From a virus: a stretch of DNA of 41,146 nucleotides. The position numbers and the translations under genes are program-made. How positions within the stretch are numbered: the first letter of the stretch is position 1; the number at the start of each line of letters is the position of its first letter. The notes under the pieces are model-generated. The model was not told the DNA's origin. It did not search any database and was given only the letters and a program-made list of their open reading frames with translations. Of this stretch, positions 20,548 through 40,800 are shown piece by piece. The stretch spans positions 1-41,146 of the IMG/VR virus record IMGVR_UViG_3300049736_000146. The stretch is one strand, 5' to 3'.

Positions 20548-21228
20548 TTATTTATTTCTTCCAACATAATTCCACTCATCTAAACCGTCGTAATTAGGTA
20601 GATGTGTTAAATTTGTTGATAGTACATATCTAGGATTATCTGTTTTATTTTTTTCCGTTTTGTGAGTTACCCAACCAGGAAAAAATAAAACATCATTTGT
20701 TTCTACTTCAATTGGACCCCATAAAAGATCTAGATCTCCAAGAGGTTCCGAACACTTATAGGGTTTTAATGGATTCTCAATTAAAAGATTTCCACTACCT
20801 TCTGGAACTTCTAGGTATGCTGCTACAGAAATAGTTGCATTTTGGTGATGGTGTGCTTCAGTAAAACCACCTTTACGATGCACATTAATCCAAGATTCAT
20901 TAACTGACATATTACATGGAGGTGCATGAAACCATGTATGCATTAGAAAGGGAACTACAAATTTTAAGTAGTCATTAAATTTATTAAACTCATCCCAGTT
21001 ATGTGGAACATCCCAAGTATCAGGAATATTATTAAAATGAACTCCGGTAATTGCATCACCATTTTCAGGATCCTGCCAATCATATTTTGTAGATAGTATT
21101 TTAGAATCTTTTAAATATTCATCTACTTTTTCTTTAAAAGAATCAAATTTAAAATCAAATTTTGTTTTGTAGATATATGCAGGGAAAGCATCAATACCCT
21201 CCATAAAATCATAATCATCTCCCATCAT
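20548..21228 (-). CDS. 2OG-Fe(II) oxygenase (PF13759-like)
   Basis: Putative Fe(II)/2-oxoglutarate dioxygenase of 226 aa in the family often annotated as 'putative 2OG-Fe(II) oxygenase' in cyanophages. The HxH-type metal motif is in GFTEAHHHQNA (H126-H128), the distal His is H189 (GWVTHKTEK), and R200 in DNPRYVLS should bind 2-oxoglutarate. Different subfamily from the oxygenase between uvsY and uvsW. First gene of the accessory block after gp16; a GATAAATA box overlaps the gp16 stop. Substrate unknown. Confidence 0.88.
   Translation of the reverse strand: MMGDDYDFMEGIDAFPAYIYKTKFDFKFDSFKEKVDEYLKDSKILSTKYDWQDPENGDAITGVHFNNIPDTWDVPHNWDEFNKFNDYLKFVVPFLMHTWFHAPPCNMSVNESWINVHRKGGFTEAHHHQNATISVAAYLEVPEGSGNLLIENPLKPYKCSEPLGDLDLLWGPIEVETNDVLFFPGWVTHKTEKNKTDNPRYVLSTNLTHLPNYDGLDEWNYVGRNK
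20549..20556 (-). promoter_or_regulatory. Candidate late promoter-like box upstream of the DUF6321 gene
   Basis: AATAAATA on the minus strand 21 bases before the ATG at 20528; one mismatch to TATAAATA. Confidence 0.4.
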
Positions 21229-21669: not shown

Positions 21670-22463
21670 AAGAATTCCATCCCTTCATTAAATCCAAAGT
21701 CATCTGTGGGTACTACAAATTGATCATCGGCAGCATCAACTTGTCCATCTTGATTATAATCAACTGTTGCTTTAGGAGTGTATGACAATTCAACGTGTCT
21801 CTTATTAACATTAAGATCTCCAATAGTCTCAATGACACGTGCCTTACGAATAACATCTGCTTTAGAATAAGGACCATAGATGTAAGACTTCGCAGTAAAT
21901 GATAGAGTATATGTAATAGATCTTCTTGTAGTAAAATCTTCTTCCCAATCATCCTCAAAGTTTACACTGTTGAGAACAAAAGCAACATCCCTAATCTCAT
22001 CCATGTCAGGAATAAATTTAATACTTACGTTTAATGATGGTTGGAAAAATGGTAAAATTTGTTCTAGAATTTGCAACCCGTCGTCTTGAGATTTAGCAAT
22101 AATACCAAGTTCAAATCCAATGTTATATGGTACAGGAACATATTGAGTTCTTACTTCTTCTCCGTTATCTGCAATAGCAGTTTTATATTTTTGAGTAGCT
22201 GCCGTTTTTCTTGCACTATCGTAATCAATACTTGACATTTCAAAATACATTCTTGGTAGAGTAATCGCTACCTTTCTACCATCGGAAGGGTTACCTTGAA
22301 GTCTATACAAGAATTTTTGTTTAGGTCCATAAGCAAGAGGAACTTTTTCAGTTTCTAATACCTGACCATCAACAGTTTTTTTCAATTCAATATTATTGAA
22401 TAATGTTCCAAAAGCGATTACGGTTTTTCTAACCGCTTCGTTATAAAATTGTGTTCCTAACAT
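21666..22463 (-). CDS. 15: gp15 tail completion protein (sheath terminator)
   Basis: Hexamer that caps the sheath and joins tail to neck. 265 aa, beginning MLGTQFYNEAVRKTVIAFGTLFNNI, the family N-terminus, with DYDSARKTAATQKYK and the ITYTLSFTAKSYIYGPYSK segment. The ATG overlaps the gp14 stop (TAATG). A VDYNQDGQVDAAD stretch near the C-terminus looks like an EF-hand/dockerin-type calcium loop, unusual for gp15. Confidence 0.92.
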   Translation of the reverse strand: MLGTQFYNEAVRKTVIAFGTLFNNIELKKTVDGQVLETEKVPLAYGPKQKFLYRLQGNPSDGRKVAITLPRMYFEMSSIDYDSARKTAATQKYKTAIADNGEEVRTQYVPVPYNIGFELGIIAKSQDDGLQILEQILPFFQPSLNVSIKFIPDMDEIRDVAFVLNSVNFEDDWEEDFTTRRSITYTLSFTAKSYIYGPYSKADVIRKARVIETIGDLNVNKRHVELSYTPKATVDYNQDGQVDAADDQFVVPTDDFGFNEGMEFL

Positions 22464-23869
22464 TAGAAGCTACCTGTAAAATTACCAAACTCACCGAATG
22501 GGTTTCTTTCACCCCAGTCAATAATATTATCCGCACCATCTTCAATTGATTGATTCTGATCAAACTCAGTGCTTGTGTTATTAATTGTTGAGAATGTTCC
22601 TAGTGTATATATCGCATTAGACTCAACACCTCTGATGAGATCACCATCTAAGAAATTACCAGTACGATTCATTACCTCTAGGGTATAATCAACTCCGTTC
22701 CAATCTGCTACCTCAGCAATTGTTGCACTATCTAAGTCAAACATCTGTGCTCTTTGACCACTGGTAATAGTATCTGTATAAGCATTAATTAGGTATTTAA
22801 GATTTACTGAGTCGTAATAAAAATGTCCTGGTACGGTTGTTGCATCCGTACCATTAAATGTGTAAACGTAAGAAATTCTACTGTCTTCAAATTTCCAGTA
22901 GTAGTATTTTTTCTGAGTAGTAGTTGCATAGTTTGGATCAAATCCACCAAGAGCAGTTACTTCAATTACACTATTAGATGAAGTCCAAGTTCTACTACCA
23001 CTTTGTTGTACCATTCCTCCAATGACAACATGTTCATCTTTAATAAATTGAACCGCTTGAGGTGGAGCATCAATAGATATGGTGGGTGGGTTTGCAGGAT
23101 CATATCCCGTTCCTCCACCAACGATTGATAGTGACACTACACCACCATCTTCAATAGTAGATTCAACAATACCACCTGTCCCCCCTCCACCTGTAATACT
23201 TACAGAGGGTGCTGTGTTATAACCACTTCCTGCAAGAGTTACAGTTGCTCCAGATATACTGCCGCTAGAATCAACGGTAACTGTTCCAGTTGCTTGCTGT
23301 CTGGTAGTAAGACCAAGATTAAGGGTTGTGATGTTACTGAAATCTCTTTCAATATCGTCAATTTCGTCAATCCCGGTGTCAAACTTGTCTGCTCCTTGCT
23401 CGTAGAGTTCAGCAGTAAGAACATAAAAATACTGTTTGCCCAATTGGAAGAATGGTTGTTCTCGTTCAACATACTTGATCTCGTAAGTATCTTCTGTCAA
23501 TGGAAAATATATTAGATCTCCTTCGTTCGGTCTACCATCTACTGCTAAATTCATTGCAGGATTTGCAGACTGTTCCCATCTTCTTCTGGAAACAACAAAT
23601 GTAATTTCGTCAGTAATTCTTAAACCAAACTTACTAACAAATTCATTGCCTGCTCCAAATCCCTCAACATTAACCAGCATCATTTCAATCATATAACTTT
23701 GATTGAATTCTGATTGAATAACTTCTCCTAAAGTTTTATCTTTAATTTGAACTCTAGGAACGTAATAAACATCAGCACCGAACAATTTAATTTGCTCGTC
23801 TACTAAATCTTGTACAAGATTCTGTTCGGTTTTATTACCACCGTATTGTGGGAAGTATACCTTTTTCAT
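22463..23869 (-). CDS. 14: gp14 neck protein with extra Gly-rich domain
   Basis: Head-to-tail connector. N-terminus (MKKVYFPQYGGNKTEQNLVQ, GADVYYVPRV, GFGAGNEFVSKFGLRI) and C-terminus (DWGERNPFGEFGNF) are gp14-type, but the protein is 468 aa against about 256 in T4 gp14. Residues 195-268 form an inserted beta-rich module with two repeats of a GSGYxxxPxVxI type (SGYNTAPSVSITGGGG and GTGYDPANPPTISI); a second non-gp14 stretch follows to about residue 400. Four-base overlap with gp13. The extra part is likely displayed on the neck. Confidence 0.9.
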   Translation of the reverse strand: MKKVYFPQYGGNKTEQNLVQDLVDEQIKLFGADVYYVPRVQIKDKTLGEVIQSEFNQSYMIEMMLVNVEGFGAGNEFVSKFGLRITDEITFVVSRRRWEQSANPAMNLAVDGRPNEGDLIYFPLTEDTYEIKYVEREQPFFQLGKQYFYVLTAELYEQGADKFDTGIDEIDDIERDFSNITTLNLGLTTRQQATGTVTVDSSGSISGATVTLAGSGYNTAPSVSITGGGGTGGIVESTIEDGGVVSLSIVGGGTGYDPANPPTISIDAPPQAVQFIKDEHVVIGGMVQQSGSRTWTSSNSVIEVTALGGFDPNYATTTQKKYYYWKFEDSRISYVYTFNGTDATTVPGHFYYDSVNLKYLINAYTDTITSGQRAQMFDLDSATIAEVADWNGVDYTLEVMNRTGNFLDGDLIRGVESNAIYTLGTFSTINNTSTEFDQNQSIEDGADNIIDWGERNPFGEFGNFTGSF

Positions 23870-24702: not shown

Positions 24703-24734
24703 AAAAAAATACCCCTAGTTTCCTAAGGGTATTT
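24703..24734 (-). terminator. Terminator-like hairpin just before gp13
   Basis: On the minus strand AAATACCC pairs with GGGTATTT, extended by TAG/CTA with one mismatch around a short GAAA loop, and is followed by a run of seven Ts directly against the gp13 ATG. The likely gp13 ribosome-binding bases lie in the hairpin, and the T-run ends one base before the start codon. Confidence 0.8.
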
Positions 24735-24737
24735 ATA
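24730..24737 (-). promoter_or_regulatory. Late promoter of the 13-14-15-16 run, embedded in the hairpin
   Basis: Exact TATAAATA on the minus strand. Its expected start, about six bases on, is after the upstream arm of the hairpin, so a transcript made from it should lack that arm and leave the gp13 ribosome site (AGGA, GGGG) open. Confidence 0.75.
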
Positions 24738-24751
24738 ATTCCTAATGATGA

Positions 24752-25291
24752 TCAGAAATCAATCGGATTTGCTGCATGAAATGCTGGTCTCCAGTCTGCA
24801 TCAAATGCTTCAACTTCTTCAGGCGTAGTAAGAGAATTTAGTAAAGCTTCATGAGCATTGTTAGCATCACGTGCTGCTTTTCTATATGCAGCTACTTTTG
24901 TTTGTCTAGTGGTTACATTTTCACCTTCTAGATAATCTAGATCTTTTGCTCTCTCTGCTCTCCATTCAACATTTTCAATAACATCAGCAATAAGTGATTT
25001 AATTCTATTGACTTTATCTTTTCTACGTTGGTCTCTACGATATGCATCTATTTCTTCTAGTAGAAGAACTCTTTGTTCTTCTATTGTTTTGCCTGGGAAT
25101 CTATTAACAACTGCAGTTTTATCAGAATTTAATGTTAAACTATCAAATTCTTCTGTAGTTTTATCATAATCATATTCTACACAATATTCGCCAGTTGGCA
25201 ATTCTTCTCCATCAAAAGGATTGCCACCTTCAAATATTCTAATAGGAGAAAGTTCCGAATTTGGACCTTCAGTAAAATAAATAAATGCCAT
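24752..25291 (-). CDS. Putative tail-fibre assembly chaperone, copy 2
   Basis: 179 aa, paralogue of the protein at 26847-27347. Shared elements: (K/R)FPGKTIEEQ near the middle, a charged helical region, a W-x-x-x-R/T-RAKD helix and a C-terminal LTTPEEVEAFD-like segment. The layout (beta N-terminus, helical C-terminus, gene directly after a fibre gene) resembles tail-fibre assembly proteins, so a chaperone for the adjacent 493-aa fibre is my inference. An exact TATAAATA box lies upstream. Confidence 0.72.
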   Translation of the reverse strand: MAFIYFTEGPNSELSPIRIFEGGNPFDGEELPTGEYCVEYDYDKTTEEFDSLTLNSDKTAVVNRFPGKTIEEQRVLLLEEIDAYRRDQRRKDKVNRIKSLIADVIENVEWRAERAKDLDYLEGENVTTRQTKVAAYRKAARDANNAHEALLNSLTTPEEVEAFDADWRPAFHAANPIDF

Positions 25292-25312
25292 TTGACTACT
25301 TTTGTTTATTGT

Positions 25313-25320
25313 TATTTATA
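25313..25320 (-). promoter_or_regulatory. Late promoter upstream of chaperone copy 2
   Basis: Exact TATAAATA on the minus strand, 22 bases before the ATG and just past the end of the fibre gene. Confidence 0.65.
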
Positions 25321-25323
25321 TTT

Positions 25324-26805
25324 TTAATCTTGGTTTGATTCTAGTTGAGATGAGAACAGCGATGTATTATACATTGATGGAACCAAGAATGGATATCCTG
25401 TACTGTTTCCTGGAGTATCAAGTAAGTAGGCACTCCTATTACTATCCCAATCATTAATATCATCACCATTACTTCTTTTCATAAATTCATAATCAAAATC
25501 AATAACTTTATAATATGTACCAGGATCGTCTTTATTTTGATCCCTGGTAAAGACCAATTTGTTCTTGCCTAACGGAGCAAGAGATCTCCCATAACTAGAG
25601 TCTTGATTGTAGAATTTCAAGTACTTACCATCACTAATTCGTACAACTACGAAAGAAATTCCTGATCCATAGTAATACATTGGACAATATGACCACCAAT
25701 ACTGACCATCACTTGAAACTTGCCATCTAGATCCATATCTAATGCCTTGCTCGTAACCATACGAGGTAGTGTAAGTTGGATTCCATAGAATACCCGAATA
25801 AACACCAGCACTATTCCAATGCTCTAAGATTGCACCATTACTTGGAGTCATCGTGAATGTATATACCTGTCCGTCGTCAGTAATACAAGTTTGGCATCTA
25901 TCTCTTGCCTCAGTCGCACCAGAATAAGACCCGTAAGCACGTGAGGACGCTTTATCATACGGAGTTGCATTTGCAGATGCAAATGCTTGATAAATTTTTG
26001 AATCGCTAGGGGTTTTGGATGCTGTTGCATCAGCAGTTCCGCTGTAATAACTACCCGACAAAGATAGTGCTCTCATGTCAACACTAAAATCATTATAAAC
26101 AATTGGTTGCTTATACCCATTACCATCAGTTTGCATCACAACAACTTTTTTAGCCGCTACATTAATACAGCTACTGCCATACATATCCTCATCTGTAGTA
26201 TTGCTATTACTAGGACCTGATGCACTAACAAGAGGAATATTAATAAAATTAGATCCTTCTCTCTGCCACAAATTATAATATTTTACCGTATTTCTTTGAC
26301 CGAAATGCATTCTTGTAGTACCACCAGCTCCCTCTCTGTTAGAGAACCATGCCCAATCTTGATTAATATCACCTACAATGCAATTAACATCTCTAAAACC
26401 ATATGGTGTATAACTTTGCGCTGCAGGCCAACCTCTTAAATAACCTGAAGTTTTAGCATACTCAGTAACACTAAGGTGTCCTTGGTGTCCTAAGTAACCA
26501 ACATTACATGTATTTGAACCACGATCTCCAGAAGAACTTGCATGACTAGTAGTTTCCATATACTGACTACTAGCAAAATTATTAAAAAATTCAGGAGAAT
26601 AAGAAGTATATGTTCTAAATTGATTATGGTGATAGTTTCCATCACCCACATATTTTGCAATCGGTTCTATGTTATGATCAAAAAGAATCCATCCACCACC
26701 ATGTACACTATGTTCCATGGCATAAACCGCAAAACATGGTTGTTGATATGGATCTTGAACTTTTGATTTTACCGTTGCAGGTCTTGTTGTGATACTTCTT
26801 GCCAT
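25324..26805 (-). CDS. Fibre-like virion protein, copy 2 (493 aa)
   Basis: Paralogue of the 512-aa protein at 27351-28889. Both start MAR-x-x-TT and share QPCFxxYAxxHS with HGGG, RTYT, VGYLGH, YGFRDV and the C-terminal TTSYGYEQG, GSRWQVSSDG, RISDGK run. Rich in Tyr, Gly, Ser and Asn, no membrane segment, beta-rich; suits a surface adhesin, but no catalytic or known domain can be named. Two stretches of DNA (25705-25735, 25743-25770) are identical to the other copy. CTAAATA box upstream. Confidence 0.78.
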   Translation of the reverse strand: MARSITTRPATVKSKVQDPYQQPCFAVYAMEHSVHGGGWILFDHNIEPIAKYVGDGNYHHNQFRTYTSYSPEFFNNFASSQYMETTSHASSSGDRGSNTCNVGYLGHQGHLSVTEYAKTSGYLRGWPAAQSYTPYGFRDVNCIVGDINQDWAWFSNREGAGGTTRMHFGQRNTVKYYNLWQREGSNFINIPLVSASGPSNSNTTDEDMYGSSCINVAAKKVVVMQTDGNGYKQPIVYNDFSVDMRALSLSGSYYSGTADATASKTPSDSKIYQAFASANATPYDKASSRAYGSYSGATEARDRCQTCITDDGQVYTFTMTPSNGAILEHWNSAGVYSGILWNPTYTTSYGYEQGIRYGSRWQVSSDGQYWWSYCPMYYYGSGISFVVVRISDGKYLKFYNQDSSYGRSLAPLGKNKLVFTRDQNKDDPGTYYKVIDFDYEFMKRSNGDDINDWDSNRSAYLLDTPGNSTGYPFLVPSMYNTSLFSSQLESNQD

Positions 26806-26843
26806 TTGTGTTACTCAGAATTTTTTACGGTCTCAATCTAACT

Positions 26844-26850
26844 TATTTAG
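26844..26850 (-). promoter_or_regulatory. Candidate late promoter-like box upstream of fibre copy 2
   Basis: CTAAATA on the minus strand, 39 bases before the fibre ATG, overlapping the end of chaperone copy 1. Confidence 0.35.
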
Positions 26851-27347
26851 TTGAATTGTTCTTTAACATTAAATGCTACTACATCTTCTTCTGTAGTTAA
26901 AGTACCTAATAAAACTTCTGCCTCATTAGATTTAATTCTAATAGCATTTATTTCTGCAAGTACTGCTGTTGTACTATCAGAGTTACCATTAACTAAATCA
27001 TTATCTTTTGCTCTAGTTAGTTTCCATTTTAATTCTCTGATCGCATCAGCAGCAGACATTTTAATTTTTTCTGTCTTAAATGCTACTTGGGTTGTAAAAC
27101 GTTTAGATGCATCTTCATCTTCAATTAAACTTTTTTGCTCTTCAATGGTTTTACCAGGAAATTTATTTGAGAGTGTGACACCATCAGCATTTAACTTTAT
27201 GGAAACAAGATAATCAGTTTCTTTCCATTCGTATTCAATAATTGCTAGTGCGTGATCACCTGCACCTGTATTATTTTGTGCTTCTAGTTCGGTGTCATAC
27301 ACACCAATAGCATGGTTATCTAATTTGTTATATACAATAAATGACAT
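26847..27347 (-). CDS. Putative tail-fibre assembly chaperone, copy 1
   Basis: 166 aa, paralogue of the protein at 24752-25291, with NKFPGKTIEEQ, a RELKWKLTRAKDNDL helix and LTTEEDVVAFN near the end. It follows fibre copy 1 by three bases, so they are expressed together. Chaperone role inferred from gene order, size and layout; similarity to known fibre-assembly families cannot be confirmed by eye. Confidence 0.7.
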   Translation of the reverse strand: MSFIVYNKLDNHAIGVYDTELEAQNNTGAGDHALAIIEYEWKETDYLVSIKLNADGVTLSNKFPGKTIEEQKSLIEDEDASKRFTTQVAFKTEKIKMSAADAIRELKWKLTRAKDNDLVNGNSDSTTAVLAEINAIRIKSNEAEVLLGTLTTEEDVVAFNVKEQFN

Positions 27348-27350
27348 TTT

Positions 27351-28889
27351 TTATAACTCCGAAATGTTAGGCATGTTTGGTTCTGAGCAAAATAATGAAG
27401 TATCATATTTTGCTGGAATTATACATGGATAAGTTGTACTATAAGGACCGCATTCAAAGGCATATGTCATAATAGTACCATCCAATGATAATTCTTCTCC
27501 GTAAGTGCGTTTATCCATTTCGTATTTAAGATCAATTGATCCAATTCTCATTCCAGCGCCACCATCACCATTCGCCGTTTTACCCCAACCCAGTGAGTTT
27601 GGTCCAATCGGGAAAGGATGTCTTCCATCACCACTATCATTGATTTGATACCTGAGAAGTTTTCCGTCAGAAATTCTGATCATCATCATATAAACACCTG
27701 CTCCATAATAATATGAAGGACAGTATGCCCAAGCAAACTTACCATCACTTGAAACTTGCCATCTAGATCCAAACTGTCTGCCTTGCTCGTAACCATACGA
27801 GGTAGTCCAAGTATAATTATGATGGTGGTGTCCATTTTGAGAGAGTTGACCGTCAGTCTGTCTCTGATCATGTTGTTGATCTGATCCTTTCCATCTGTAC
27901 CAGTGAGCTCCACTACTTGGAGTCTGAACGAATACTACAATATCTCCATTATCACATAAGAATGGAATTGGTCTATATCTAGCTTCGTTATTACCAGAGT
28001 AATTATTATAAGCAGTATTAGTTTCTATCTGTTGATACTCAGTAACGTTTGCAGAGTTACTAAAGAAATTGTGAAGACTGCTATCACTATTTCCCTCGTT
28101 CTGAGCACTCATTGATTGGGCATATGCTTTAGAGTTTGCATGTGAAAACTCTCGCAAATCAGGAACGTTGTTATAAACAACGGGTTTGAACCGACCAGTA
28201 CTAGTGGTAAACATCACTAGAAACTTATTTGTTTTTTTGTTGTAGCAACAACCGCCATGAGTTGCATAGAAATTCTCTGTACTACCATCTCTATTGGTAT
28301 AATTTCTAGGTATGACAGTCTGCTGTGAATACCTACCATTAAACTTCATATTATAATATTCAGTTGCAGATCTCTTCAAGAACATTAAGTTCGGTGCAGT
28401 ATTCCCACTTTCAGTGCTGAAAATTGCATAATCTTGATGTGTTTCATTTACAATAGGACAAACATCTCTAAAACCGTAAGCTCTATAACTTGTTCCATTA
28501 TCGCGACCAGCCATGACCCAACCGCCCATGTTGCCAGCAGCAGAACCAGAAGAACTATGAGACATATGTCCCAAATATCCTACCATAGGAGTATGGCAAC
28601 AATTCCAACCACCATTGGAAGATGCAGATGAATTTGTTTGGGTACTATTATAACTGCTACTGGATTCAAAAAATTCAGTAGCAGATGTTGTATAAGTTCT
28701 CCATGACCCATAACCACTGCTGTCTCCTGTACCAAAATCCGCCGCCACAATATTAAAATTATGGTCGTATTGATAATAACCCCCACCATGAGAATGGTTT
28801 AAAGCATAAGTCGTGAAACACGGTTGTGAATAAGGATTTATCGTTTTTTGTTGGGATGCAACCGTTGCGGTTGTTAACTTGCGAGCCAT
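27351..28889 (-). CDS. Fibre-like virion protein, copy 1 (512 aa)
   Basis: First of two paralogous surface proteins. MARKLTTATVASQQ then PYSQPCFTTYALNHSHGGG; mid part His/Asn/Gly/Tyr-rich with a HHHHNY stretch; C-terminal conserved block TTSYGYEQG, GSRWQVSSDG, CPSYYYGAG and IRISDGK. The central third is the most different between copies, which suggests that part faces selection from host receptors. Probably a trimeric adhesin or baseplate fibre; function inferred from location with other tail proteins. Confidence 0.78.
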   Translation of the reverse strand: MARKLTTATVASQQKTINPYSQPCFTTYALNHSHGGGYYQYDHNFNIVAADFGTGDSSGYGSWRTYTTSATEFFESSSSYNSTQTNSSASSNGGWNCCHTPMVGYLGHMSHSSSGSAAGNMGGWVMAGRDNGTSYRAYGFRDVCPIVNETHQDYAIFSTESGNTAPNLMFLKRSATEYYNMKFNGRYSQQTVIPRNYTNRDGSTENFYATHGGCCYNKKTNKFLVMFTTSTGRFKPVVYNNVPDLREFSHANSKAYAQSMSAQNEGNSDSSLHNFFSNSANVTEYQQIETNTAYNNYSGNNEARYRPIPFLCDNGDIVVFVQTPSSGAHWYRWKGSDQQHDQRQTDGQLSQNGHHHHNYTWTTSYGYEQGRQFGSRWQVSSDGKFAWAYCPSYYYGAGVYMMMIRISDGKLLRYQINDSGDGRHPFPIGPNSLGWGKTANGDGGAGMRIGSIDLKYEMDKRTYGEELSLDGTIMTYAFECGPYSTTYPCIIPAKYDTSLFCSEPNMPNISEL

Positions 28890-28923
28890 TAATTTGTCCT
28901 ATTATAGTAACTGTTCAGAATTA

Positions 28924-29247
28924 TCAAGCGTTTCCGTCAATACCGTATGCTACTGCAGAAATTCCAGTTGCAGATGACCAAATTTGAACGGCGTTTGTTG
29001 CATCAACAACAATACCTGTTCTTTCAAGAACACCGTTTGCTGGTAAAGTAACACCATATTCAATATGATCAGCATCTGCTACAGTTGTGGTAGCTGCTAA
29101 TGCAAGTCTGATAGTAATATTACTTGAAGTTCTATTACATACATTTACTGTACATACTTTTGTTTTACCTGTACTTGCTACGGGAACTAAAGTTTCCCAA
29201 GTTGAGGCGGACGCAACGTCCACCTTTGCATATACTCCTGACGCCAT
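28924..29247 (-). CDS. Small virion structural protein, 107 aa
   Basis: Beta-rich, Thr/Ala/Val-rich protein (MASGVYAKVDVASASTWETL, then NVCNRTSSNITIRLALA and VTLPANGVLERTG) with no charge clusters. It looks like a small immunoglobulin- or jelly-roll-like structural protein. Lies between the 1563-aa protein and fibre copy 1; RBS AAGGAG and TATAAATA upstream. Structural role inferred from context. Confidence 0.75.
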   Translation of the reverse strand: MASGVYAKVDVASASTWETLVPVASTGKTKVCTVNVCNRTSSNITIRLALAATTTVADADHIEYGVTLPANGVLERTGIVVDATNAVQIWSSATGISAVAYGIDGNA

Positions 29248-29287
29248 GTTAATGCTCCTTGTTAGATCTTGCTTATGGTGTTATGGT

Positions 29288-29295
29288 TATTTATA
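29288..29295 (-). promoter_or_regulatory. Late promoter upstream of the 107-aa structural gene
   Basis: Exact TATAAATA on the minus strand, 41 bases before the ATG, just past the 1563-aa gene stop. It may also drive fibre copy 1. Confidence 0.65.
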
Positions 29296-33999: not shown

Positions 34000-34368
34000 T
34001 TACTTAGGTCCTTGAGTGTTATGATCATATGATTTATTTAGTCTTGCAACTAAGTAACCATCATCATCAATGAAATATGTCAAGCGTCTGAAATCAAACC
34101 TGAACTGTTGGTATTTATCATCGGTATCATTTGAATATTGTCTTGCAACATTAGGTGTCGCATCCACATATTCAGTTCCTTGGAGAAAATCTTTATATTC
34201 TTCTCCATCAGTTCTATGAAAATCGTAAACTACGTCTTCAGTTGATCTCGCATTAGTATAATGAAGCATACCGTCCTTATCTCTTCTCAGAGCGTGTACG
34301 GTAAAGTCATTTGAATTTGCAACATTTTGTTCTTGTGTTGCAGTACTTGCACTAAGATATAAACTCAT
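34000..34368 (-). CDS. Virion-associated protein, 122 aa
   Basis: Acidic, Tyr- and Asp-rich (FTVHALRRDKDGMLHYTNAR, RQYSNDTDDKYQQFRFDFRR, FIDDDGYLVARLNKSYDHN). No named domain recognised; the terminal part appears beta-rich. ATGA overlap with the upstream Mtd-N-like gene and 11 bases to the 1563-aa gene, so it belongs to the tail operon. CTAAATA inside its end could serve the next gene. Confidence 0.75.
   Translation of the reverse strand: MSLYLSASTATQEQNVANSNDFTVHALRRDKDGMLHYTNARSTEDVVYDFHRTDGEEYKDFLQGTEYVDATPNVARQYSNDTDDKYQQFRFDFRRLTYFIDDDGYLVARLNKSYDHNTQGPK
34035..34041 (-). promoter_or_regulatory. Candidate late promoter-like box before the 1563-aa gene
   Basis: CTAAATA on the minus strand, 47 bases before the ATG at 33988, within the end of the 122-aa gene. 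Confidence 0.3.
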
Positions 34369-34823
34369 GCTAAGATCCTCCAGTAAATTCCGTCCCAGAT
34401 AAACTGAACATATAAACCAGCAACATCTAAAACAAATACGCTATCGGTATTTCCAAATTTATTCAAAAATAGCTGTCCATTACTGGCTGTTAGCGTGACA
34501 TTATTTATAGCCCATGTTGCTTTAAAATCAACTAGTTCCAGCACATCACCAACGTGAGGAACAACTCCCGCTGATTCAAATGGCATAGTTAATGATAGCG
34601 CACTTGCACTAGTATCAATTAACCATCTAAGTCCGCATGATAAACTTGTATCTGTATTGACAACTTCCCATCTCGTTCGTTGGAGTTCAAACCCCCCAAT
34701 ATCACTACCATCATGTACAACCGCTGTTTTTTTATCGGTATCTACCGTAAGTTCAGCTAACGCACCTGTAAATAGTGCGTGTTCGGAAGTTGTGCCCTTT
34801 CTAAATTGTACCTGAGTGGTCAT
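34365..34823 (-). CDS. Mtd N-terminal-like tail protein, 152 aa
   Basis: N-terminus VQFRKGTTSEHALFTGALAE and LTVDTDKKTAVVHDG match the short module found at the start of major tropism determinant (Mtd) and many phage fibre proteins, thought to fix the fibre to the baseplate. The rest is a small beta domain ending FIWDGIYWRILA. At 152 aa it is stand-alone and lacks a variable lectin domain. TATAAATA 27 bases upstream. Confidence 0.8.
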   Translation of the reverse strand: MTTQVQFRKGTTSEHALFTGALAELTVDTDKKTAVVHDGSDIGGFELQRTRWEVVNTDTSLSCGLRWLIDTSASALSLTMPFESAGVVPHVGDVLELVDFKATWAINNVTLTASNGQLFLNKFGNTDSVFVLDVAGLYVQFIWDGIYWRILA

Positions 34824-34860: not shown

Positions 34861-37800
34861 TTAAATCATCCAAACATATGTGCGAGGTGGTTGGAACAAC
34901 TCAACTTGTACAATTCCAAATCCACTAATTGCGATTGAACCACTTGCAATATAAGGAGCACGTGCAAATGCCTCATCTCCATTAATAAATCCGAACAACG
35001 TTCCAGATCCGGCATAAGCACGGGATCTGATACTCGTACTAATACCATTAACGTTAATTTTAACGAATGGTTGCTCAGAGAATGTAAGTAATGGATCTCC
35101 GGATGTTCCTTGAAGTGTAAATTTGCCAGGAGTACCAAGTTCTCTTGCGGTAATTTTTTCTGATATTCTTTCTCCCGCAAACGAGAAGAGCATTTGTCTC
35201 TCGTCTGGGTTGACAGTGAGAGATTCTGCTGCACCAGATAGAGTTGGGATAATACCAAACCCAACAAAATCTCTTGCTCTTGTAGTAGTTGCATTTCCAC
35301 TGAGAGGAATTGTTCCTTCTCCAGTATGTGCAAATCTGACAAGAACACCAGCTTCTCCGGATGCCTTGAATAGTCCACCCTGACTGACTTCTCTTGCAGT
35401 TGTATTTTCTGTTCCCGCACCAATGAACGAGAAGAGCATTTGCCTCTCGTCTGGATTGAAGGTAACCGATTCTGCAGATCCCGATAGTTTTCTGAGTGAA
35501 CCAGAACCAATATGTAGTACGGAGATTTTGTTGATAGAATCTCCAGAGACCTTGAACAGAACTTGTTCTGTCTGCGGTACAACTCCAGTAGATTCTGATA
35601 CTCCACCAAATCCGAAGAGTGAACCAGTACCAATAATACTGCGATGAGTGGTGAAGAATACCTTGCCACTGATCTTCGTCTGAACAAATGGTTGTTCTGC
35701 GAATGTAAGTAATGGATCTCCAGATGTACCAGAGAATGTAAATGTTCCACCTTGACTGATTTCTCTGACAAGAATTCTTTCTGTACCTTCTCCTGTAAAG
35801 GAGAAGAGCATTTGCTTCTCGTCTGGGTTAAAGGTAATAGATTCAGCACTACCTGCAAGAGCAAAGATATTACCAGATCCAATGTTGTTCGGAACAAATT
35901 TCTCTGTAACAACACCAGAAATTTGAGTAGAACCAGAACCTGTATATACTGCAGAGAAGATTTCTTCACCATCTCCAGTGATATCAATCTCAACTTGTTT
36001 GATCTCAGCAACACTGAAGGATTCTGATGCTTCCCCAATGAAGGAGAAGAGCATCTGACGTTCATCTGGATTAAACGTTACAGATTCTGCAACACCATTA
36101 ATGGCGAAGATGTTACCCGATCCAATGTTATTGGGAACATATCGTACAAATACAACACCAGAAACTCTTAGGTCAGCTTGTAGTTCTGGCGATGCAGTGA
36201 AGGATTCTGATAGACCACCAATTCCGAATAGAGAACCAGTACTAAATTCAACAATAGATGTAGTCTCTGCAATTCTCGTTCCGGTAAACGAGAAGAGCAT
36301 CTGTCTCTCTTCTGGATTGACAGTAAGAGATTCTGCAGATCCGGAGAGTGTTTTGAGTGAACCAGAACCATTGTGTAGTAGACTGAAGTTTGTTTTTGCT
36401 TCACCACTAACTGGGATAGTACCAGTAACAACCCAAGATGGTTGCCAATCAAAGGTCTCAAAGTCAGATAGCGCACCTCTGCGAATTCTGATTGTCTTCT
36501 GAATACCGAAGTAATTCTCGGTATGAGTCTCGCTTCCTTCTCCTGTAAAGGAGAAGAGCATTTGCCTCTCGTCTGGGTTGACAGTGAGAGATTCGGATGC
36601 ACCAGAGAACTTCCTGAATGTACCAGTACCAACAACACTTGGAACATAATGTGTCTTGGCAATACCACTGACAGGAATAACTCCAAATGGTTGCTCTGCA
36701 AATGTAAGGATTTGAGGAGTTGTATCTCCAGATAGTCTGATTTCAGTACCTTCTTCTGGTGGATTGGCGGAGAATACTTCTTCGGATGTACCACCAAGTT
36801 TGATATGTGCTGTAAACTCTGGAAGTTTTCTGGTAATCGCTTCGGAACTAATTCCGTTAGAGAAGATAGCACCAGATCCAATAAAGTCTCTTGCTCTTGG
36901 AGTTGCAGCAACACCAGAAACGTTGATAGTTCCAAATACAAAGTGATGAACAAGTACACGTTCAACCAGATTATTAACAGTGAATAGACTTCCTGTTCCT
37001 GTGTATGGAATAGTAAAGCTTTCTGTGAGAACACCAGATAGTTTGATGTCTGTGGTAATATCTGGTGGATTGAATGATACTGCTTCCGCTGCACCATTGA
37101 TTCCGAATAGTGAACCAAATCCTGTAAATATTCTTGCCCTTGGAGTTTCTGCAATTCCAGAAACTGGAATTGTACCTTGAGATACCCAAGAAGGTTGCCA
37201 GTCGTAAGTAACAAATCTGCTGAATGGACCAGGAGATACTTTGAATAGAAGTTGTACTTCGTCTGGTGAGTATCTTCTGCTTTCTGTAGCACCACCGAAT
37301 CCGAATAGAGATCCACCACCAAATGTTCGTAGACTGAATAATGGAATCGCTGCATTGCGAACAAGAATCGGTGGAGATATATTGTTCCATTGTGGAGGAA
37401 CAACAATGAATGCTTCTCCAACAATCTTGATAACTGTACTCTCGGTAAAGAGAGAAGTGTCGCGAGAATACTTCTCAACCAGTGTACCCTTGAGTGAATC
37501 AAGTTGACCGAACGGACAGACAAGACCAGTAGTATCAAGAATATGTCCGTAATCTGTCAGTCCATCTTGTGGATCTGATACATCTTGATAGTCTGCGAAT
37601 ACTGTTGGTACAGTTGTAAATGCAGTTAATGTATAAGTTACTCCAGGATCAATTGATAATGTAGATCCTAGAGTTACCTTTGTGCATCCAGAAGACGATG
37701 TGGTATTTGTAGAGACAACTCCATCAACATCAAGACATACACTATTTGCAGAAAGATCAACGATTCTTCCATAATCAAGTTCAGGTTCATCTCTACAGAG

Positions 37801-40800
37801 ATCCATACTGTAAACTTCAGTATGCTTCTCTTCTGAAAGTTCACTGAGTTCTGGTTTCTTGGAACATAGAGTAATAGAACCAGTAGTCTCATATGCATAC
37901 TGAACTCTAAGATCTCCACCACTAATTGCGAATAGAGAACCGGTGCCTTCGTGTGCAAGAAGGATTGCAGGATCTCCAGATGTTCCAACGAATGTGAAAA
38001 TTGGTTCTTCGGTAGGAGGAACTGAAGTAGTAGACTCTGCTGTTCCTGTATATCCAAATAAAGTTCCTGTTCCCTTAATACCAACGGTAATACCAATTTC
38101 AGTATCACTACGGAATCCGAATAAACCATCACCTGGTTGTAGTAGACTGAAGTTAGTCTTGGAATTTCCGCCAAGTTTGATCTGACCACTACCAATTTCA
38201 CTAGCAAATAGTGGGGAGATTGCAACACCACTAATATCAATAAATCCACGACCATTATAATTTGGAGTGAATTTAACATCACTAACTCCAAAGATATCAA
38301 TCTGACCGTAGATACATGCAGGTAATCCTTGTCTTGGAGTTCCAAGAATATGACCATGATCAACCAGAGGTGAAGCATTCTCTGCAACAAATCCATAATC
38401 CAGAGTAGAAGATGGAACTGTGTATTGTGGAGTAATGGTGTAAGTAACACCAGGATCAACTGCTAACGAATTGAGTACCTTGGTGCATCCAGTTGCAGAT
38501 GTGGTATCTGTAGAAATAACACCGTCAACATCAACACAAGAAACTGCATTTGGATCAATAATAAATCCGTAATCTGGTTCGGTAAATGGTGCAATAGAAC
38601 TACAGTTGTAACTGTAAACCTTGACTTCCTCAAGGTTGTTAAATCCAAAGAGTCCACCAGAACCAACGTAATCATATACAGTTCTTTCAACTGCAGTTTG
38701 TAGCGTGAATAGAACACCACTACCAATCCAGTTGGGATTGAATGCAAACGTTGCTTCTCCAGTAAAGGAGAATAAAAGATCTCTTTCGTCTGGGTTGAAG
38801 GTAACCGAATCTGCAGCACCACTGAGAGTCGGGATAAATCCATCGCCAAATATACCAACGCCAATTCCAATCTGAGATTCACTATGGAATCCGAATAAAC
38901 CATCACCTGGTTGTAGTAGACTGAAGTTGGTAATAGAATCACCACCAAGTGCTTTGATGTTTCCTGAACCAAATACAGTGACATCAAGAGGAACTCTACC
39001 TTCACCGAAGATACTAATGCCACCCCGAGATATCCAGTTAGGTGCAAGACTATTAACAGATGCACCTGTAATATCAATATGACCGTAAATACATCCAGGC
39101 ATTCCGAGACGTGGAGTACCAAGAATATCTCCAAAGTCTGCAAGAGGAGCTGCGTTCTCTGAAGTTAATCCATAATCTAAGACATTAGATGCAATAGTAT
39201 TCTGAGGTCTTACAGAATAAGTAACACCTTGATCAATCGTTAGTGTATTAAGTACCTTGATACATCCAGACGTTGTTGTTTCACTCGCAGAAATAACACC
39301 GTCAACATCAACACATGCAATTGCTCCTGTGTTGATAATAAATCCATAGTCGTTCTCTGGGAAAGGAACGATAGAACTGCAGTTGTAATCGTATACTTTC
39401 TTCTCTTCAAGATTATTAAATCCGAAGATTCTTCCAGATCCAACATAGTCATATACAGTTTTCTCAACTGCAGTTTGTAGAGTGAATAGAACACCACTAC
39501 CAATCCAGTTGGGATTAAAGGAGAATGTTGCCTCTCCAATAAGAGAGAACAATAAATCTTTTTCTTCTGGATTAAAGGTAACGGATTCTGCAACGCCACT
39601 AAGAGTTGGAATAAATCCTGTTCCGGTAATTCCAGCAGTAATACCAATCTCAGTATCACTACGGAATCCGAATAAACCATCACCTGGTTGCAACAGAGCA
39701 AAGTTGGTAATAGAATCACCACCAAGTTTCCTGATGGTTCCTTTACCAAATACGGATACATCCAGAGGAACACTAGCTTCACCAGTAAGTTTACTGATGT
39801 ATCCTCTACTTGTCCAAGTTGGATTAAACGCAAACTGCGCTCCATTTTCTGGATCAAGATGGAACAATCCAAACGGAATAAGATTGCTAGTAATTAAGAT
39901 ATTACCAAAGTCTACCTGTGGTGAAGCAGGTTCTGATATTAGACCATAGTCAATAAAGTTACTAGGAGCATTAGCACCTAGACTTACACCATAAGTTGTT
40001 CCTGGATCAATACTTGCAGTTGATCCTACACGTACAATACATCCAGAAGATGTTCCGGATAATGTTCCTGATACATCTTCAATATCACTTGGATGACATA
40101 TAGTTAGATAACCATAGTCTGCCTTAGAGAATTCAATGATACTATCATTGATGTATCTTTCTGTATGTTTTTCGTCTGATAGTTCGGGAAGTTCTGGTTT
40201 TCTGCTAACCAGTTTAAGTCCACCAGATCCAACGAACGCATTTGTAGCGCGTTGCTGTCCATTAGATAGGGTGAATAGATCTCCAAATCCTGTTTCATGT
40301 ACAAGAGTAATATCTCTTGCAGTACCTGTAACCTTGCTAATATATCCGCTACTAGTCCATGTTGATACGAATGCATCGTCTGTACTTGCAATCGTAAATA
40401 GAGTACCAGAACCAAATATGCCAACACCAATACCGATAGGCGATTGTCCAAGTACAGAGGTACTTCCAACACCATTGTGCTTCGGAGAAAATACCTCTGT
40501 GCTTGTACCACTAAGACCCTTGACTTTTCCGTCAACGATATAACCGTATACTGCTGGTGAAGTCTGTCTACCAAAGGTAAACGCAATGCCTCTACCTTCG
40601 TAAGTGCTAGTCGCCTTCCAAGACGCTTCACTAACAACTTTAACAAATCCGAAAGATTCTACATTAGTTACATAAACAACTCTGCCGTAATCTTCTAGTG
40701 TGGCATTGATATCTGAAATATTACCAAAATTTATTGTTGGTAATACTGGAGTTGTTGTATGTGTATATGTTACTGATTTTAATCCATAGTGATCCCAATC

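Follow-up and report, generated by a model that had tools for sequence, protein, structure and literature searches.

A tandem pair of putative propeller adhesins with partner genes in a T4-like cyanophage: signs of old duplication, cassette exchange and gene conversion in one segment

What are the two tandem gene pairs that stand before the neck genes of an uncultured T4-like phage, and why do the two larger genes share nearly identical DNA in one short segment? We examined a stretch of 41,146 nucleotides, positions 1 to 41,146 of virus record IMGVR_UViG_3300049736_000146 (the window). The virus is a T4-like cyanophage of the Kyanoviridae type. The window carries the T4-type genes for portal, scaffold, protease, gp23 capsid, sheath, terminase, gp13 and gp14, and the major capsid protein gp23 is 78% identical to that of Synechococcus phage S-RSM4. 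A related 192-kb contig (L025/L030, G001) is collinear with the whole window and encodes two Photo_RC (psbA/psbD-type) genes, thus a marine cyanobacterium is the likely host. Towards the neck, the genes encode, in order, a fibre-type protein of 1563 aa (phrog_9851), a 107-aa protein weakly matching a tail fibre PHROG (E=6e-4), copy A, its partner, copy B, its partner, gp13 and gp14. The features of the locus are as follows.

29288 to 29295, minus strand: TATAAATA, a late-promoter-like motif at the upstream edge of the cassette (pattern scan).
28924 to 29247, minus strand: 107-aa gene upstream of A, inside the stretch that differs from the 192-kb cyanophage contig; identity falls from ~98% to ~75% at the start of the gene.
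27351 to 28889, minus strand: copy A, an open reading frame for a 512-aa propeller-like putative adhesin, first of the tandem; copy A sequences form one clade.
27690 to 27815, minus strand: apparently homogenised block in copy A, spanning roughly one modelled blade, with the 31- and 28-base identities and lineage-specific synonymous sharing with B.
26847 to 27347, minus strand: partner of A, 166 aa, putative assembly factor, after a 3-nt spacer.
25324 to 26805, minus strand: copy B, an open reading frame for a 493-aa propeller-like putative adhesin (AlphaFold model with Foldseek beta-propeller matches).
25654 to 25779, minus strand: apparently homogenised block in copy B, with the same identities and lineage-specific synonymous sharing with A.
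25313 to 25320, minus strand: TATAAATA, late-promoter-like, before partner B (pattern scan).
24752 to 25291, minus strand: partner of B, an open reading frame of 179 aa, putative assembly factor.
24752 to 29247, minus strand: exchanged cassette, made of the 107-aa gene, A, its partner, B and its partner.
24730 to 24737, minus strand: TATAAATA, located at the cassette's downstream edge ahead of the gp13-like gene (pattern scan), near a breakpoint at 24729-24788.

The window holds six copies of TATAAATA against 3.2 expected, a count that is not above chance and not significant alone. Other genes nearby have features of their own. The gp14-like neck protein (22463-23869) measures 468 aa, far longer than the 292-aa gp14 of Syn1, and a match of its residues ~174-262 to families of baseplate wedges and fibres suggests that a surface domain has been inserted. 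A 152-aa protein (34365-34823) has an Mtd_N domain and a gp9/10-like stretch, and a 1668-aa open reading frame contains internal DNA repeats of 71-74% identity at 35062-35264, 35683-35882 and 38078-39784.

The initial annotation had described a tandem duplication of a fibre gene followed by a chaperone gene, and the duplication was borne out. All four open reading frames lie where it had placed them on the minus strand, the 512- and 493-aa genes are each followed by a paralogue of about 170 aa, and both genes of the unit are paralogous, in the same order and strand, with A and B in separate clades. Aligned end to end over 513 columns, A and B are 37% identical (BLASTP E=3e-92); the partners reach 40% over 128 aa (E=1e-23). 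The reported identical stretches were confirmed base for base (31 bases, 25705-25735 = 27741-27771; 28 bases, 25743-25770 = 27779-27806), and the DNA block containing them matches at 99 of 118 positions (E=3e-27). The two copies do share a block; it is not C-terminal, as had been claimed, but lies ~70-80% along the protein and is followed by ~100 residues. Likewise, the strong divergence ascribed to the central parts is real but not limited to the centre: taken together, the sequence outside the block is ~36% identical, dipping locally at several points, and its N-terminus is conserved to a moderate degree. All four proteins are encoded at 100% identity in three contigs from other metagenomes, which excludes an assembly artefact.

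To which family do A and B belong? No protein of the family matches a named tail family, and neither copy has a tail-fibre match in Pfam or PHROG. Structures were predicted with AlphaFold for copy B and its partner. The copy B model has a mean pLDDT of 60 and a pTM of 0.69; its N-terminal third is unresolved, and residues ~140-460 are better modelled as repeated beta meanders. Foldseek searches of the PDB with this model return beta-propellers of many kinds, Photorhabdus lectins first, with probabilities up to 1.00 and E of 3e-5 but TM-scores of only 0.2-0.34 from a query of mean pLDDT 60; searches of BFVD return WD-repeat, FG-GAP and propeller proteins of viruses. The shared block corresponds to about one blade of the B model (residues ~343-385). 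Thus A and B are probably beta-propeller proteins, and "fibre-like" is a doubtful label and probably a misnomer, because the model resembles a propeller. A trimeric fibre would be expected to show a beta-helix, collagen-like or coiled-coil fold; the monomer model, outside its unresolved N-terminal third, is propeller-like. A propeller is also used in host recognition by the receptor-binding protein of staphylococcal phage phi11, where it is one module of a larger trimer; the likeness lies in the putative propeller, and sequence similarity was not found in a PDB search with the present proteins.

The partner of B is modelled with high confidence (pLDDT 91) as an N-terminal beta part and a long helical hairpin. 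This model has no fold match in the PDB, and the partner matches no chaperone of the Tfa, gp38 or gp57A type in Pfam, PHROG or PDB. From its linkage and size we regard the partner as a putative chaperone or assembly factor. It might instead be a virion subunit or a regulator, a reading that we find doubtful. The want of a chaperone family or fold match would suit such a role, as would the late-promoter-like site that partner B has of its own; on the other side, the partner gene directly follows the adhesin gene in every complete contig, and in one lineage a single partner serves two adhesins, which an assembly factor fits better than a subunit of fixed stoichiometry.

We compared the locus with its relatives. 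The window and the 192-kb contig are mostly 93-99% identical (94.8% in the flanks measured), whereas across 24752-29247 identity drops to 69.6%, the strongest divergence in the 41 kb. The edges of this stretch are abrupt, at ~29229-29289 and 24729-24788, in or beside spacers holding TATAAATA motifs. Lesser dips occur at 17.0-17.5, 19-20, 20.5-21.5 and 32.0-32.5 kb; the second strongest divergence spot, at 79-86% identity, is a 2OG-Fe(II) oxygenase gene (20548-21228). Against L010, gp13 has a dS of 0.012, compared with 0.52 for A and 0.61 for B. Likewise, against L028 and L009 the flanking long-fibre, gp13 and gp14 genes show dS of 0.08-0.16 and A and B show 0.39-0.50. The breakpoints vary, since against L009, L010 and L028 the drop starts in the 5' part of A and not in the 107-aa gene. 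Furthermore, dN/dS is 0.17-0.68 for the A and B genes and 0.31-0.95 for the partners, against 0-0.21 for gp13 and gp14. Compared visually, the trees of A and B branch in much the same way, suggesting that the pairs move together. Judged from these alignments, the four genes and the upstream 107-aa gene form a cassette that is exchanged between otherwise near-identical phages. The proposed diversification of receptor-contacting parts is therefore only partly upheld: both pairs do change more quickly than the genes beside them, but what is mainly seen is whole-cassette exchange between phages.

One might take A and B for structural decoration or neck parts, whisker-like, at the place of wac and gp12, with two copies serving assembly stoichiometry. 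In T4, gp12 and wac lie before gp13 and gp14, and the A and B units likewise stand directly before these genes. The fibritin of phage Aeh1 also requires a downstream chaperone gene (PMC3797505). Yet exchange of a whole cassette and fast evolution beside slow gp13 and gp14 are typical of host-recognition parts, and lectin-type propellers are among the best fold matches; we consider the decoration reading unlikely. The region before gp14 has been described as a hypervariable host recognition cluster in marine T4-like phages (PMC7029224). Place, exchange as a unit, fast evolution and the lectin-type fold together point indirectly to an adhesin role. Most likely A and B serve as adhesins in the part of the virion that recognises the host, each being matured by its partner.

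How widespread is the doubled organisation? Copy B, its partner and two distant adhesin relatives had no match among 50,697 phage records, and a search run without a positive control found no homologues in S-TIM5, S-CAM1, P-SSM2 and Mosig. The family is common in IMG/VR, where a relative of the adhesin is encoded in 128 stretches, and the best 80 of the 128 were retained for analysis. Three architectures emerge. The order A-partner-B-partner is intact in 22 contigs, the window and L044 included, and recurs in L085 and L087, two contigs that are more distantly related. About a dozen contigs have a single unit, with upstream sequence sufficient to exclude a nearby second copy; in L037 and L042, for example, the unit comes after the long-fibre gene, and in L037 it sits between a 107-aa-type gene and gp13/gp14. 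The third architecture, two adhesins with one partner, is found in L043, L049 and L051-L053. More distant tandem relatives of the adhesin occur in L091-L108, in many of them as two or three copies, with no recognisable partner gene. The contig L044 (WTIV01000013.1), a phage contig with the full quartet, lies inside a GTDB "Euryarchaeota" MAG and is very likely mis-binned.

Both copies are present in every contig of the A/B lineage that covers the whole region. A and B are reciprocally monophyletic (SH-aLRT 99), and the partners likewise form two clades (84). Nesting the nearer single-unit contigs with A, or with B, is rejected by the AU test (p=7e-4 each), and they branch outside both. As they can be placed with neither copy, the unit was duplicated once in an ancestor of this lineage. 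Phylogeny thus indicates a duplication that is old and fixed, preceding the diversification of the lineage. Three other histories were tried. Loss of one copy as the source of single units is rejected for the nearer single-unit lineages by the same AU result. A recent duplication does not account for the identical stretches, since the A/B split predates all sampled lineages of the clade. Finally, one duplication for all doubled lineages is refuted by the lineage in which two adhesins share a partner, where the adhesin duplicated separately (AU p=1e-5); for L085/L087, the test against one shared duplication gives p=0.5.

An old split makes the identical stretches the central question of the locus. 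The simplest alternative invokes strong purifying selection on the shared block, at the protein or RNA level, with no conversion, and few parts of the protein are indeed as well conserved as the block throughout the family, single-copy members included. We compared A-B synonymous identity within and between lineages, using all 5040 pairings of seven lineages and 27 overlapping windows. In columns 360-400 (~40 codons), synonymous identity is 0.76 within a lineage against 0.58 between lineages (pairing p=0.0002, 1/5040). Over the rest of the gene the values are 0.54 and 0.51, a much smaller effect (p=0.017), and away from the block the windows are mostly not significant.

The codons give the same picture. 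After a valine codon, both copies of the window lineage use TCA for serine (GTT TCA), while both copies of L012 and of L021/L022 use AGT (GTA AGT). In L035 alone, the two copies both have GGC CAT at a place that codes for Glu-Gln in nearly all other sequences. These patterns common to A and B are signs of conversion in four lineages; the block codons of L013/L014 show none. Selection on the protein fails to explain lineage-specific synonymous sharing between paralogues of one genome, including the TCA/AGT split. Constraint on the nucleotides was rejected as well, as the silent codons of the block show no unusual likeness between orthologues of different lineages, which match no better there than elsewhere (0.55-0.56). 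Codon bias is excluded as the cause by the rest of the gene. We therefore regard purifying selection alone as improbable. The homogenisation proposed earlier is thus supported, and the comparison within and across lineages separates it from mere protein conservation.

The extent of conversion appears limited. Paralogue-specific residues survive inside the block, and its protein tree still splits A from B, suggesting that the tracts are short. In the block DNA tree the A/B label changes six times, against once in each of the N-terminal and C-terminal trees. The AU test on the 126-base block does not reject A as one clade (p=0.13), and it is on the pairing test and the codon patterns that the case depends. 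A per-genome segment scan of silent codons by order permutation was weak (mostly p 0.01-0.1 or higher) and is superseded by the lineage-pairing test. The partners yield no window that passes the silent-site conversion test, and no conversion signal was detected in the duplicated adhesins of L043, L049 and L051-L053. The suggestion that the two copies recombine into one another was not supported: we saw no A/B chimera, and a single change suffices to part A from B in the N-terminal tree and again in the C-terminal one. Taken together, the silent sites argue that the block has been homogenised by short, recurrent gene conversion between the paralogues. Most simply, this conversion would arise as a side effect of homologous recombination wherever constraint on the protein keeps the two DNA copies similar; selection may maintain it, both copies needing the same blade.

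A dedicated device might also maintain the block. A locus with two pairs of adhesin and helper is reminiscent of the tail-fibre segments that Mu and P1 can switch, and the nearby 152-aa protein has an Mtd_N domain, as would suit an inversion switch or a diversity-generating retroelement. No reverse transcriptase (RVT_1) was found in the window and 16 related contigs, many of them fragments, in a search with positive controls. Both units have the same orientation and the order is identical in every quartet, which speaks against an inversion switch. Such a device is very improbable, and gene conversion by ordinary recombination is our preferred reading.

How does this locus compare with known systems? 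In Mu and P1, alternative pairs of tail-fibre and assembly genes (S-U and S'-U') can be switched. The present locus resembles them in holding two adhesin-helper pairs with shared parts, but here the order is a direct tandem of full-length genes with no inversion. With the host recognition cluster of pelagimyophages and cyanomyophages, a hyperplastic region (PMC7029224), it has in common the place before the neck genes, the variability between relatives and the tail genes; it differs in being a defined, sharp-edged cassette of 4.5 kb, with a propeller-like protein and its partner in two tandem copies. In the T-even gp37/gp38 adhesin locus, conserved motifs are targets of recombination in host-range genes (Tetart 1998, as related in PMC11414711 and PMC3797505). 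From those accounts the likeness lies in the motifs; here conversion between paralogues of one genome would homogenise the motif, and the variable parts are not swapped. The tail spike clusters of Ackermannviridae likewise hold several recognition proteins, with recombination between neighbours, on conserved N-terminal linking domains; partner gene pairs of this kind are not reported in the portions of that account at hand (PMC11414711). An Alteromonas phage fibre and its cognate chaperone also travel together between phages, as a single pair whose duplication the consulted part of the source does not describe (PMC10579305), whereas here the module is doubled; the search of the phage records brought out no sequence relation to the present proteins. 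A literature text search of partial coverage, weak evidence as such, found no close precedent for concerted evolution of one segment in duplicated host-recognition genes. The hypervariability of the region was already known; the protein family, the doubling that has become fixed in a whole lineage and conversion limited to a block appear to be new.

We propose the following model, which we hold to be somewhat better than an even bet as a whole: two anciently duplicated and co-retained propeller adhesins with dedicated partners, an exchanged cassette and conversion in one block. The two-gene unit was tandem-duplicated once before the lineage diversified, both pairs being retained. A and B would be surface-recognition proteins, probably beta-propeller adhesins held on the tail or baseplate by their conserved N-terminus, and as virion adhesins they would set host range. 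Each small partner, expressed from the next gene, may mature its own adhesin as a dedicated chaperone. The cassette at 24752-29247 is swapped whole between otherwise near-identical phages. Within the adhesins, short conversion appears to recur, confined to one segment of ~40 codons, presumably by homologous recombination where the conserved protein keeps the DNA similar enough. The homogenised segment may have a job common to both copies, as a blade core, an oligomer contact or a common ligand site, and having two copies may confer dual binding specificity or build a hetero-oligomeric tip.

Cyanomyoviruses lack wac, g10-g12, g34, g35 and g37 (PMC2984593), and since the marine phages of this group have no recognisable T4 fibre, short-fibre or whisker genes, their adhesins are poorly known. 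We tentatively suggest, as an idea with well under even chances, that the new propeller family and its partners are the missing receptor-binding apparatus of a large uncultured group of marine cyanomyophages, a heteromeric or dual-specificity tip whose shared blade is kept matched by conversion and the rest of whose cassette is exchanged as a host-range allele. The work names a specific candidate adhesin pair with partners for marine cyanomyophages, and documents what appears to be concerted evolution of one segment inside duplicated host-recognition genes. Furthermore, the natural set of alleles on nearly constant backbones would make cyanophage host-range genes directly testable.
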